Program-made: the position numbers and the translations under genes
Shown: positions 949 to 5,396 of the stretch, piece after piece
Numbering within the stretch: the stretch's first letter is position 1
How the letters are laid out: the number at the start of each line of letters is the position of its first letter
Notes under the pieces: generated by a model
Seen by the model: the letters and a program-made list of their open reading frames with translations, nothing else
Databases searched by the model: none
Told to the model about the DNA's origin: nothing
DNA from: a virus
Direction: 5' to 3' (one strand)
Virus record (IMG/VR): IMGVR_UViG_3300032240_001895
Span: 1-29,580 of that record
Length of the DNA: 29,580 nucleotides

Positions 949-2409
949 TTAAACTATTCTGGTGCTGTAGACCATTAAGTTTTGTAATGTAGCCTCATCA
1001 TTTCTAACAAGAGGTATTGTAACTTGTCTAATCTCTTTATTGACATCTGAATTAACAGAATTATTAATTACAGTAGTATCATTTGATTTATTTGGTTTTG
1101 GCCTGTTTAAATCTAAGCTTTCACTTTGTACAGCATTTAATTTACTTGTTGCTTTAGAAATTTGATCCATTAATTGGGGACCAGCTTCTTGCCTAGGTAA
1201 TGTTGGTGTTGGTGTAGTATCTTTTGGTGTAAGTTTTTCTTTATTAATTGGAATGATGCCAGTATCACCTGAAGTAAATTCTCTGGTTGGACCAGCAACA
1301 ATACCTTGTTTCATTGCTCTATCTGCTTGAGCATTAACTTCTCTCATATATTCAGGTGGTGGTGATTTACCTTCTTTATTTTTAAAGATATATTCACCTT
1401 GAGGAGTTACACCAACTTTATTAAATCCATTTTCTGCAACCAACTCTTGAATTAAATTTTGTTTTTGTGTAACAAGTTTGTTTATCTTTTCACCTTTGGT
1501 TTCTTCACCAGCATTCATAATTGCTGAACCTAAAGCACCTGGATCACCAGCGCCTAAGTATTCATCAGTTTGTCTTTCTGCTGCTAAGTTACCAGCTTCT
1601 TCTCCACCAAGTTTAGTATATCTCTCTACCTCCTGTTTACCTTTGAGCGCTGCGCCACCAATAATAGCGGCAGAAACAAGACCTGCAAAAGCTACAGGAC
1701 CACCCAATAATGATCCTAGCCAAGCTAGACCTGTTCCTGCGGATACAAATTTTCTCAATAAATTAAATACTCCAAATAATCCAGCAGTAGATTCTAATAA
1801 TTTTAATAAATCTTTAAAATTAGGTATTAATTTTAATAATGCATCTTCAACCAATTTCATTAAATCTGGCATTTGAAAATTAGAACCAGAAAAGCCATCA
1901 ACTTTTGTTGCTGTTGATGTTGTACCGCCAGCAGAAGCAACTAAAGCTTTAAGAGCTTTAACCAATTCTTTATGTCGTTTTTGTCTTTCTAATTCTTTTT
2001 CTTCAGAGAAGTTTTGTTGTTTTTCACGGATTAATTTATCTTCTTCTCTTGTTTTATGTAACAAACTTTCTATTTCTTGCAATATACTAAGAGCTTCAGA
2101 TGAACCCATTCCATAAGAATTTAATTTAGAAGCAGTTCCTTTATTTTTGTCTTTAGCACCTGAAAAATATTTAATTGTACTTTGTTTTCTGCCAGTTAAT
2201 TTACCTAATAAAGCTGGCGCTAAATTGGAACCACCTGTTACAAATTTGGCAATATTTAATGGATCAAATTTTTCTTTAAGACCTTCTACTTTTGCTTTAG
2301 ATTTTAAAGAAATAGTTTTACTTAAAGAAGATAATACACCACCTTCTTGTTCAGCCAAAAGGCTACCAAAAGATTTATTTCTTATTTTAGATGCTTCTGA
2401 ATAGTCCAT
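949..2409 (-). CDS. Putative tail protein, paralog of the neighbouring lysozyme-like protein; hydrophobic central region
   Basis: I do not recognise a T4 equivalent for this 486-residue protein. Residues 1-90 are about two thirds identical by hand alignment to the start of the upstream 474-residue protein (shared RNKSFG, LLAEQEGG, FDPLN, APALLGKL, YFSG). A charged, probably coiled-coil stretch follows (about 105-150, rich in E, K, R and Q). Next is a leucine-rich helix region and a long hydrophobic segment at about 206-256 (AGLFGVFNLL...GPVAFAGLVSAAIIGGAAL), as in tape-measure or membrane-penetrating virion proteins. The C-terminus is low-complexity, rich in T, P, N and S. Its ATG overlaps the upstream stop by one base (TAATG at 2409), so the two are translationally coupled. 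A tape-measure-like or tail-tip role is inferred from position after gp26 and its extension; it is unproven. Confidence 0.6.
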   Translation of the reverse strand: MDYSEASKIRNKSFGSLLAEQEGGVLSSLSKTISLKSKAKVEGLKEKFDPLNIAKFVTGGSNLAPALLGKLTGRKQSTIKYFSGAKDKNKGTASKLNSYGMGSSEALSILQEIESLLHKTREEDKLIREKQQNFSEEKELERQKRHKELVKALKALVASAGGTTSTATKVDGFSGSNFQMPDLMKLVEDALLKLIPNFKDLLKLLESTAGLFGVFNLLRKFVSAGTGLAWLGSLLGGPVAFAGLVSAAIIGGAALKGKQEVERYTKLGGEEAGNLAAERQTDEYLGAGDPGALGSAIMNAGEETKGEKINKLVTQKQNLIQELVAENGFNKVGVTPQGEYIFKNKEGKSPPPEYMREVNAQADRAMKQGIVAGPTREFTSGDTGIIPINKEKLTPKDTTPTPTLPRQEAGPQLMDQISKATSKLNAVQSESLDLNRPKPNKSNDTTVINNSVNSDVNKEIRQVTIPLVRNDEATLQNLMVYSTRIV

Positions 2410-3833
2410 TATTTTCTATTAGCTTTCTTATCCATGGCGTTTCTATCATCACCAGTCACGGTTTCTGTTTGATTTGATTGTGCCTGTTTTAAATTCATTG
2501 GATTTTGTATGAGGGTATTAATAATATTGTCCGTTGTTGCTGCAATTGCTTTATTTTCTTTTAATTCAGCTGATGTTTTTTCTATTGTTTCACCAGTTTT
2601 CACGGTATTTGGAACAACTTGTGTTTTATTTTTTTGTAAATCTTGTCTATCACTTCTAAGAAGTTCCGTCATTTTTTCAACAGAGATAGATGCTTTATTA
2701 CCGTTACCATAATGTGAAGTTTTACCGCCAGGAATATCTGGATCGGCAATTGAAGCCCACTCTAAAGACAAAGACTTTAATGCTGCATATAATAACTTTG
2801 GATCATCAACCGGACTATTTAAGTAGTTTGCAATAGCTGGCCGTTTTGCACCAATTAAATATCTTTCAAATAAATTTTCTTGTACTTTACCAGTAAACTT
2901 TTGTTTAGTGTCTATATTTAATGTTTCAACGGCCAATTTTAAAGTTTCTGGAATCATTTGATATTTACCAACAGCAAACAATTTATCACCTTCATTTGGT
3001 GAACCCCATTTAATTGATTGCCTTCTCATAATTTCGTCAATTGTCATATCTTCTATATTTATTGAACCAGGTTTAATTCCAACAATTTCTTCTTTGCCTG
3101 TTTTTGCATTTACTCTTGTACCTTTATTGGCAGCATTATAACTTGCTTTAGCGGATTCACCTTCTGCAATTGCTTTTGAAATTTTTAAAGTAGAACCTAA
3201 ACCAGCAACAATTGCTGCGCCACCAGCCAATGTTGCGATAGAAGCAAAAGACGGAAATCCTTCTTTGCGTGGAGTTATATTAACATTTATAGGTTCACTT
3301 GTTGGTTCTGGTTGACTTTTTGGTGCCGTTAGTGGTTTTGTTTTTTTGGTGATTCTTTTTTTAGGTGTACCTTTTAAAACTTTAATAATTTCATCATTAC
3401 GATTCCATTCTTCATTTTCCATTTCTTCCATAAAATTCATTCTTTTCTCATCGTCTAATTTTTTATCTTCTCTAGCTTGTTTTAAAGATTTATAGATGTA
3501 ACCTAAACATTCAATTATTTCAGGTGAATCAAATGAGCCACTCATATTACTAATAGAATCAGCAGTATTTTTATTTTTAACACCAGAAAAATAGTCGGTT
3601 CTTCTTTTATCAGCTCCAATTAATTTACCCAACAAAGCTGGTGCCCAATTAGAACCAAAAGTTAATTTTTTGGCTAAATTGAGAGGATCAAAAGTTTCTT
3701 TAAGTCCTGTTATTTTTGCTTGAGTTTTTTGGGAGATTGCTTTTGATAAAGATGAAACTAAACCACCCTCTTGTTCGGCCAAAAGGGTACCAAATGATTT
3801 GTTTCTAAGTTTAGCTGCTTCTTGGTAATTCAT
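2409..3833 (-). CDS. Virion protein with lysozyme/transglycosylase-like domain
   Basis: This 474-residue protein starts with the ~90-residue module shared with its downstream paralog, followed by a charged helical region (about 105-155), a basic proline-rich linker (about 155-190) and a short hydrophobic stretch (about 196-215). Residues ~215-375 resemble phage muramidase/lytic transglycosylase domains: a GES/YNAANKG block near 225-238 (E224 or E226 is the likely catalytic acid), then MTIDEIMRRQ, then LFAVGKYQMIPETL (285-298), whose G-[KR]-Y-Q-x-I-P-x-T-L core is typical of the group. It probably cuts peptidoglycan during DNA entry. It could replace the lysozyme domain that sits inside gp5 in T4, since the gp5 homolog here lacks one. 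The ATG is 3 bases after the stop of the gp26 frameshift extension and the gene overlaps the next one by one base. The domain call is by motif; the exact glycosidase type is not decided. Confidence 0.72.
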   Translation of the reverse strand: MNYQEAAKLRNKSFGTLLAEQEGGLVSSLSKAISQKTQAKITGLKETFDPLNLAKKLTFGSNWAPALLGKLIGADKRRTDYFSGVKNKNTADSISNMSGSFDSPEIIECLGYIYKSLKQAREDKKLDDEKRMNFMEEMENEEWNRNDEIIKVLKGTPKKRITKKTKPLTAPKSQPEPTSEPINVNITPRKEGFPSFASIATLAGGAAIVAGLGSTLKISKAIAEGESAKASYNAANKGTRVNAKTGKEEIVGIKPGSINIEDMTIDEIMRRQSIKWGSPNEGDKLFAVGKYQMIPETLKLAVETLNIDTKQKFTGKVQENLFERYLIGAKRPAIANYLNSPVDDPKLLYAALKSLSLEWASIADPDIPGGKTSHYGNGNKASISVEKMTELLRSDRQDLQKNKTQVVPNTVKTGETIEKTSAELKENKAIAATTDNIINTLIQNPMNLKQAQSNQTETVTGDDRNAMDKKANRK

Positions 3834-3836
3834 TTA

Positions 3837-4025
3837 CTATTTTCTTTGTCTTTCTTTTATTTTAGCATTTTCATCTTCAATATACTGAATCAACAAAGAT
3901 ATGTAAATATCTCTTTCCCAAGGTATCATATTTTCAAGTTCGGTCAAGCTATACTTATGGTGCTGCATTAACGAAAAATTCGTTTTATAATAATTACTCA
4001 GATTTTCATGACGAAATATTAACCG
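3837..4025 (-). CDS. Candidate -1 frameshift extension of gp26 (62 residues)
   Basis: The -1 frame relative to gp26 is open from the slippery site to a TAG at 3837-3839 and gives 62 residues. It starts RLIFRHENLSNYYKTNFSL, continues MQHHKYSLTELENMIPWERD, then a helical charged tail ending KIKERQRK. The composition (aromatic, helical, MPWE-type turn, charged end) looks like real protein, like the T-type extensions of tail-assembly chaperones. The only internal ATG (3966-3968) would give 43 residues and would leave out the aromatic FRHENLSNYYKTNF part; I see no good ribosome site for it. Entry by frameshifting from gp26 would give a 302-residue fusion. The lambda G/GT and P2 E/E+E' genes are the known precedents. 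It may equally be annotated in relatives as a separate small hub-assembly gene; treat the fusion as inference. Confidence 0.7.
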   Translation of the reverse strand, partial: RLIFRHENLSNYYKTNFSLMQHHKYSLTELENMIPWERDIYISLLIQYIEDENAKIKERQRK

Positions 4026-4744
4026 AAAAAACTTTCTAACCCTTCCACCTCAATCGTGTGAGCAAATCCACACTTACCACAAGTAATATTAAGGGTTTCT
4101 TTTAATTTTGGCATTTCTTCAAAAAACTTTTCAACTTTTGTAAATTGTTCTTGATTCATGCTTTCTACAAAATCTAACATTTCACCTGGTTGCGCTTCAT
4201 GGCCATAATAAAATTGTTCCCCATCATAAATGTACTCAATAGATTCAGCAATCATATTAAAGGTAATTTGATTAACATTTTCATATTTTAATGAATCTTT
4301 GACAACACCAAATTCTGGATATTTCATTTTAACAGTAATTTTTGATGTTAATTGAATTTCTGGATCAATCTCTTTAGGTAATTGAACATTAATTTTTGTT
4401 AAATCAATGTTTTTTTCCATAATATTACCACATTCTTTATCATCGACAATATTATTACATCTATATTTTGATTCTACAATCTCACCAACAGATTTGGCTC
4501 TAAGATTTACAAAATAGTATTCGATATCAACAATAGGTAATTTGTCAACATCAATATCTTCAGTCATTGTACAATTGATGAGAATGTCTTTAATTGAAGA
4601 TTGAATGGTAGAAGATTCATTTGATTCTAATGCCATCAACAGATTTCTCTGTTCTTTAATTAAAAAAGGTCTGTATTTAATTTTCTTTTTAGATACAGGC
4701 AATTCAATTTCATAAGTTGGTACATCAAGTTTTGGTAAAGCCAT
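4019..4744 (-). CDS. 26: Baseplate hub/tail assembly protein, T4 gp26 family
   Basis: This 241-residue protein matches the T4 gp26-type baseplate family in start (PTYEIELPVSKKKIKYRPFL, then LIKEQRNLL) and overall plan; T4 gp26 is 208 residues. Early residues form a beta-hairpin and a helix. C96 and C105 plus C222 and C225 (CGKCGF) suggest a zinc ribbon formed from two halves. Its ATG has a good ribosome site on the minus strand (GGAG, 9-10 bases upstream). The last codons contain the slippery site described separately, so a fraction of ribosomes may make a 302-residue extended form. It sits between the tail-tube-type protein and the two paralogous tail proteins, which supports a role in assembling hub or tail. 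The family call is good; whether it acts as a catalyst/chaperone or a structural part is not visible. Confidence 0.8.
   Translation of the reverse strand: MALPKLDVPTYEIELPVSKKKIKYRPFLIKEQRNLLMALESNESSTIQSSIKDILINCTMTEDIDVDKLPIVDIEYYFVNLRAKSVGEIVESKYRCNNIVDDKECGNIMEKNIDLTKINVQLPKEIDPEIQLTSKITVKMKYPEFGVVKDSLKYENVNQITFNMIAESIEYIYDGEQFYYGHEAQPGEMLDFVESMNQEQFTKVEKFFEEMPKLKETLNITCGKCGFAHTIEVEGLESFFG
4025..4031 (-). promoter_or_regulatory. Slippery heptamer T TTT TTC for -1 ribosomal frameshifting
   Basis: Read on the minus strand, the gp26 codons end GAA AGT TTT TTC GGT TAA. The heptamer T TTT TTC fits the X XXY YYZ rule, so both tRNAs can re-pair one base back (TTT TTT) just two codons before the gp26 stop. 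A Shine-Dalgarno-like AGGTGG lies at 4045-4050, 13 bases upstream of the heptamer, with AAGGG closer in (4040-4044). An internal Shine-Dalgarno element at about this distance stimulates -1 shifting in E. coli dnaX. I see no strong hairpin within the usual few bases downstream. Confidence 0.65.
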
Positions 4745-4772: not shown

Positions 4773-5396
4773 TTATTTAAAGAAATTGCCAATCGATGAA
4801 CTACCAACAACATTGTCAACCATGTCGGCAACTTGATTGATACCATAATCAACCAATTGCATTGCAAGAGCCTGTGTTGAGTTGTTTTCCCAACGGGTAT
4901 AAGCAAAAGTTACGCTTAATTTGTGATAACCATCACTACCCCAATCTAAATCCAATTGATTCATTGAAATTGGATAAGCATCATACAAATTAATTGAATA
5001 TGATAAATCCCCAGAAACATCATATTGATTAATTTTAAGTATTGTTGCATAATCACCTTTATAACGAATATTGTTATTATATAAAGGATTAATATAATTT
5101 AACCACGCATCAAATAATACTTTTTGTTCCATATTATCATCAACAATAAATGTTAAGTCAATATCATTGTAAGTATTTAAATATGGATACTTTTCAATTG
5201 GTCCATAAGTTCTTTGTTCTGTAGTTGCTAATGTTCTTCCTGGTAAATTGGCATTTTCACAACGATATTTTAAAGATTTAACAGAAGAAACATAAGGTAT
5301 CATCACCACAGGAATAGTAACATCAACATCAAACCTATTGGTTCGTGCCACATCTTTAGTAAAACTTGATTTAAAATCGTTAATATTACCTGCCAT
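4773..5396 (-). CDS. 54: Tail-tube-type protein, baseplate tail-tube initiator (gp54/gp19 fold)
   Basis: This 207-residue protein has the tail-tube signature of T4-like marine phages: a segment with RFDVDVTIP near residue 22, YRCENANLPGRT near 45-56, TYGPIEKYPYLNTYNDIDLT in the middle, DAWLNYINP, and a closing beta strand YHKLSVTFAYTRW. These are the strands and loop that stack in the gp19-type inner tube. In such phages this form, placed beside gp26 and near gp48, is usually annotated as gp54, the baseplate protein on which tube polymerisation starts; T4 gp54 is longer (320 residues). It could instead be the tube protein itself (gp19), but the hub neighbours favour gp54. Its ATG is 1 base after the previous stop, with AAGGA in the end of the upstream gene as ribosome site. 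Confidence 0.72.
   Translation of the reverse strand: MAGNINDFKSSFTKDVARTNRFDVDVTIPVVMIPYVSSVKSLKYRCENANLPGRTLATTEQRTYGPIEKYPYLNTYNDIDLTFIVDDNMEQKVLFDAWLNYINPLYNNNIRYKGDYATILKINQYDVSGDLSYSINLYDAYPISMNQLDLDWGSDGYHKLSVTFAYTRWENNSTQALAMQLVDYGINQVADMVDNVVGSSSIGNFFK

Follow-up and report, generated by a model that had tools for sequence, protein, structure and literature searches.

A gp26/gp51 tail assembly chaperone pair in an uncultivated T4-like phage, very probably fused by a -1 programmed frameshift at T TTT TTC

The window analysed here is the whole 29,580-nucleotide stretch of the viral record IMGVR_UViG_3300032240_001895, and all the genes and signals described below lie on its minus strand. 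Gene 26 (positions 4019–4744) encodes gp26, a protein of 241 residues assigned as the short chaperone, TAC-N, and it is followed in the -1 frame by the gene 51 extension (3837–4025), which consists of 62 codons and a TAG stop and is assigned as TAC-C. The upstream neighbour (4773–5396) encodes the tail tube protein (phrog_45, 4.9e-40, and PF23849), and the upstream genes also include those for the gp2 DNA end protector and the gp4 head closure protein (Pfam and PHROGs). Downstream, gene 51 is adjoined by the gene of a 474-residue tail protein (2409–3833), which matches phrog_30077 (6.6e-26) and, among endolysin-like PHROGs families, phrog_1200 (1.8e-12). The next gene encodes a 486-residue protein (949–2409). 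Up to residue 154 it is paralogous to the 474-residue protein (54% identity, 4e-45), and beyond that the two differ. The hydrophobic stretches of the 486-residue protein would be compatible with a tape measure role; neither Pfam nor PHROGs gave a tape measure assignment for either of the two. The gene order gp2, tail tube, gp26, gp51 and large tail protein is the same in phiM12 and in a KVP40-like phage, and similar orders are found in pf16 and phiM9. The relatives of the window are mostly cyanophages, followed by Vibrio, Aeromonas and Sinorhizobium phages, and the window is part of an uncultivated T4-like phage of the cyanophage/KVP40/phiM12 kind.

In the Pfam profile search gp26 matches T4_baseplate (PF12322) over residues 9–240 with 6.9e-60, and in PHROGs it matches phrog_150, "baseplate hub" (1.6e-63). 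The extension matches phrog_634, "baseplate hub assembly catalyst", which is gp51 (3.9e-28); its Pfam search returned chance matches only, and tblastn with the gp51 part matched 568 phage records. The gp26 and gp51 profiles found no useful match among PDB sequences. The AlphaFold2 model of gp26 is confident (pLDDT 91), and that of the extension is helical (pLDDT 84). When the gp26 model was compared with 350,542 PDB chains, ranks 1 and 2 went to 2ob9, the tail assembly chaperone of HK97, with its two chains, though the resemblance is weak and non-significant (E = 0.76, probability 0.54–0.63). Against predicted viral proteins, the same model matched T4-like gp26 proteins, down to 6e-21.

The 3' end of gp26 reads GAA AGT TTT TTC GGT TAA on the minus strand. 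The heptamer T TTT TTC (4025–4031) stands in the X XXY YYZ register, and the single codon GGT separates it from the gp26 stop TAA (4019–4021), which would be bypassed after a shift. Past the two phenylalanines the -1 frame is open for 62 codons, up to the TAG at 3837–3839; from the local dinucleotide composition, the chance of so many open codons is ~0.008. The predicted fusion has 238 + 64 = 302 residues. A purine-rich, Shine-Dalgarno-like stretch, AGGTGGAAGGG (4040–4050), lies 8–13 nt upstream of the heptamer and is a possible stimulator; it comprises AGGTGG (4045–4050, 13 nt upstream) and a second purine run, GGAAGGG (4040–4046). Upstream, the extension frame is closed by a -1-frame TGA (4050–4052). 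The earliest ATG of this frame is M22 (numbered from the reading that starts FF), and no ATG, GTG or TTG occurs in the window between the TGA and M22. The slippery heptamer, its register, the 62-codon extension, the 302-residue product and the distance of AGGTGG had all been proposed in the first-pass annotation, as had the loss of 19 residues if translation began at the ATG, and the window sequence bears out each of them.

An alignment of the junction in related phages had been named in advance as the check on the proposed frameshift. The proposal passed this check, and retention of the site in these relatives is the decisive evidence for it. About 330 loci were taken from viral contigs and annotated phages, and dropping those more than 85% identical in nucleotides around the junction left a non-redundant set of 163. 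In 161 of these the frame of gp51 is -1 with respect to that of gp26, and 160 of the 161 carry an in-frame TTTTTTN before the gp26 stop, at a distance of exactly 10 nt in 149. The seventh base of the heptamer is C in 133 of the 160 loci, A in 19, T in 7 and G in 1. The codon ahead of the TTTTTN run always ends in T, whatever residue it encodes (AGT, GAT, TCT, AAT, GCT and others). The sequence T_TTT_TTC was found at 133 of the 140 junction Phe-Phe sites, but at none of the 159 Phe-Phe sites elsewhere in the same genes, and away from the junction gp26 genes have an in-frame XXXYYYZ heptamer at 0.66% of codon pairs; the sampled loci share ancestry and the counts are thus not independent events, but the contrast is still extreme. 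The Salmonella phage Det7 (Ackermannviridae; locus L093, 1938–2902) has a gp51-like stretch in the -1 frame without the canonical heptamer (GAG ATT TTC ATT TAA), so that a different shift signal or route would be needed there. All the comparative evidence fits the proposed joining of gp26 to its extension by a -1 programmed frameshift, and we regard it as very probable that gp26 and gp51 are a tail assembly chaperone pair fused in this way at T TTT TTC.

The most likely of the alternatives, although we reject it as very unlikely, is that gp51 is a separate small protein with its own start, translated by re-initiation just past the gp26 stop. Most cyanophage records annotate it as a stand-alone protein; S-RIM44, S-SSM7, phiM12, P-RSM6 and a KVP40-like phage are cases of this annotation, and an in-frame ATG is present near the junction in 94 of the 160 loci. 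With other start codons counted, 108 of the 160 relatives have a possible start there, and in these a free gp51 could be made as well. The remaining 52 loci, the window included, have no ATG, GTG or TTG before extension residue 15, so the lack of a good independent start suggested for the window extends to 51 other lineages. The residues ahead of M22 are as constrained as the later ones: among the 16 distinct members of the window clade, extension residues 3–21 have a dN/dS of 0.078 and residues 22–58 one of 0.065, whereas the other two reading frames of the same DNA give values above 1.5. With a dN/dS of 0.08, purifying selection on the N-terminal part of gp51 is strong, and 36 loci have V or I in place of M22 itself. 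A separate gp51 would also leave the in-register retention of T TTT TTN unexplained. Finally, gp51 of cyanophages and marine vibriophages lacks the first ~200 residues of the T4-type protein (Sullivan et al. 2010, PMC3037559), and the cyanophage protein would look short because the frameshift supplies this part from gp26.

Still less probable is a slip of the RNA polymerase on the T6 run, which would add a base and yield the fusion from an edited mRNA. The run of six T is indeed present in all heptamer loci, but six is short for transcriptional slippage. Such slippage would not need the codon register X XXY YYZ, which is constant in 160 of 161 loci, and the heptamers with A as their seventh base, found in 19 loci, are likewise of a kind on which ribosomes slip. 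That the break is an indel from sequencing or assembly, or that a formerly continuous gene has decayed into a pseudogene, has a negligible chance and is already refuted by the relatives: the parts do form a single uninterrupted gene in gp51 of T4 and of the Aeromonas phage, but 326 of 330 loci, drawn from many separate samples, show the same frame relation with the heptamer, and the extension is under strong purifying selection.

In respect to stimulating elements, the situation differs between lineages. The duplex of the purine stretch with the anti-Shine-Dalgarno sequence is -7.8 kcal/mol in the window. Over all lineages the mean is -7.0 kcal/mol, compared with -5.5 after synonymous resampling and -2.1 elsewhere in the gene (p 6e-14 against resampling, a value that is too small since the loci are related). 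Within the window clade (n = 16), however, the pairing is not above the resampled value (-5.4 vs -5.5 kcal/mol), which means that the amino-acid sequence EGL explains the stretch there. The Shine-Dalgarno-like stimulator of the first-pass annotation is therefore plausible, but in this clade its pairing is no stronger than what the gp26 amino-acid sequence alone gives. Downstream of the heptamer, no RNA structure signal was seen in the window (z about +0.5) or its clade (mean z +1.2). Hairpins that begin 4–5 nt after the heptamer, and span or follow the gp26 stop, are found in MED4-213-like and S-SSM7-like relatives (L303, L313, L327, L328 and similar; L085, L098, L136), and they are of two types, 8 bp with a 4-nt loop and 12 bp with a 9-nt loop. 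The pairs co-vary in alignment A1: 16 cells are changed on both sides of the helix, whereas shuffling gives 5.4 and none of 500 shuffles reaches 16, and the pairing is 77% against at most 45% when slid. The covariation support is weaker in alignment A2, and in alignment A3 (MED4-213 subclade) the helix is almost invariant, so covariation says nothing there. It is conceivable, at somewhat less than an even chance in our estimate, that the slippery site is constant throughout the group and the stimulating elements turn over between lineages. The window clade would then rely on the heptamer, on the upstream purine stretch or on something unseen. The lineage-specific downstream hairpin is the only element that may be new, and it belongs to the relatives, not to the window.

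The heptamer, its register, the coding character of the -1 frame, the absence of start codons and the fused nature of T4-type gp51 are established at the level of comparative sequence; in vivo frameshifting with its efficiency, and a function as chaperones, are inferred. In the proposed mechanism most ribosomes would end at the gp26 TAA and release the short chaperone TAC-N of 241 residues. At T TTT TTC some would slip one base backwards, with the P- and A-site tRNA-Phe pairing again with TTT and TTT, and would go on to read gene 51, giving the 302-residue fusion, TAC-NC. If lambda gpG/gpGT is a guide, it is probable that both forms coat the tape-measure or hub protein and help it to fold, and that the extension recruits the tail tube subunits.

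The -1 frameshift at this site would explain why gp51 of cyanophages often escapes annotation or is entered as a stand-alone protein, and why it seems ~200 residues short. The practical outcome is an annotation rule, namely to join gp26 and gp51 by a -1 shift at T TTT TTN, which covers hundreds of phage records. In several deposited cyanophage genomes gp51 is unannotated, for example in Synechococcus phage ACG-2014d (locus L083, 2004–2192).

T4 genes 26 and 51 contain parts homologous to gp26 and gp51 of the window. T4 gp26 matches the gp26 profile, and in T4 gp51 residues 1–201 match PF12322 (3.9e-52) and residues 147–246 match phrog_634 (1.2e-23), which makes it a natural fusion obtained without frameshifting. 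Exceptions to the frameshift arrangement are the T-even phages, which have a separate long gp51 gene, and an Aeromonas phage, where, as in T4, it is one long gene with an N-terminal part of ~200 residues homologous to gp26. In T4 the short and long forms are encoded by two divergent, separate genes and no shift is needed, whereas the window has one overlapping pair. Frameshifting is reportedly conserved in several T4-like groups, T4 being said to use separate genes 26 and 51. The idea that gp26 proteins of T4-like phages use such a shift agrees with its retention in the relatives, but it had already been published, and T4 itself, with its separate gp26 and fused gp51, does not need it. According to the papers that cite them, Vladimirov, Gautam & Davidson (2022, Virology 566:9-15) identified the T4-like tail assembly chaperones and their polyT slippery sites, that is, the same gene pair with the slippery site in the TAC-N gene. 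The Adele paper (PMC12846349), citing the same work, treats polyT slippery sequences as known in T4-like TAC-N genes, and PRFect (PMC10885494) describes some T4-like phages that encode the short and the fused form in separate genes instead of frameshifting. Neither the mechanism nor the gene pair is new, the window contig is another member, and the conceptual gain beyond the 2022 identification is small.

Among more distant systems, the tail assembly chaperones of Vandenendeviridae and Andersonviridae (phage Adele, PMC12846349) combine a -1 shift at a T-rich motif that ends TAC-N with a downstream TAC-C and an adjoining tape measure gene. They differ from the window in belonging to other phage families and in the motif, GTTTTT. 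The parallel with lambda G/GT and P2 E/E' drawn in the first-pass annotation is consistent with all the comparative evidence obtained. The lambda frameshift uses another heptamer. In respect to arrangement, lambda gpG/gpGT and P2 gpE/E+E' (Levin 1993; Christie 2002; Xu 2004) resemble the gp26/gp51 pair, with a short protein and its -1-extended form encoded between the tail tube and the long tail proteins.
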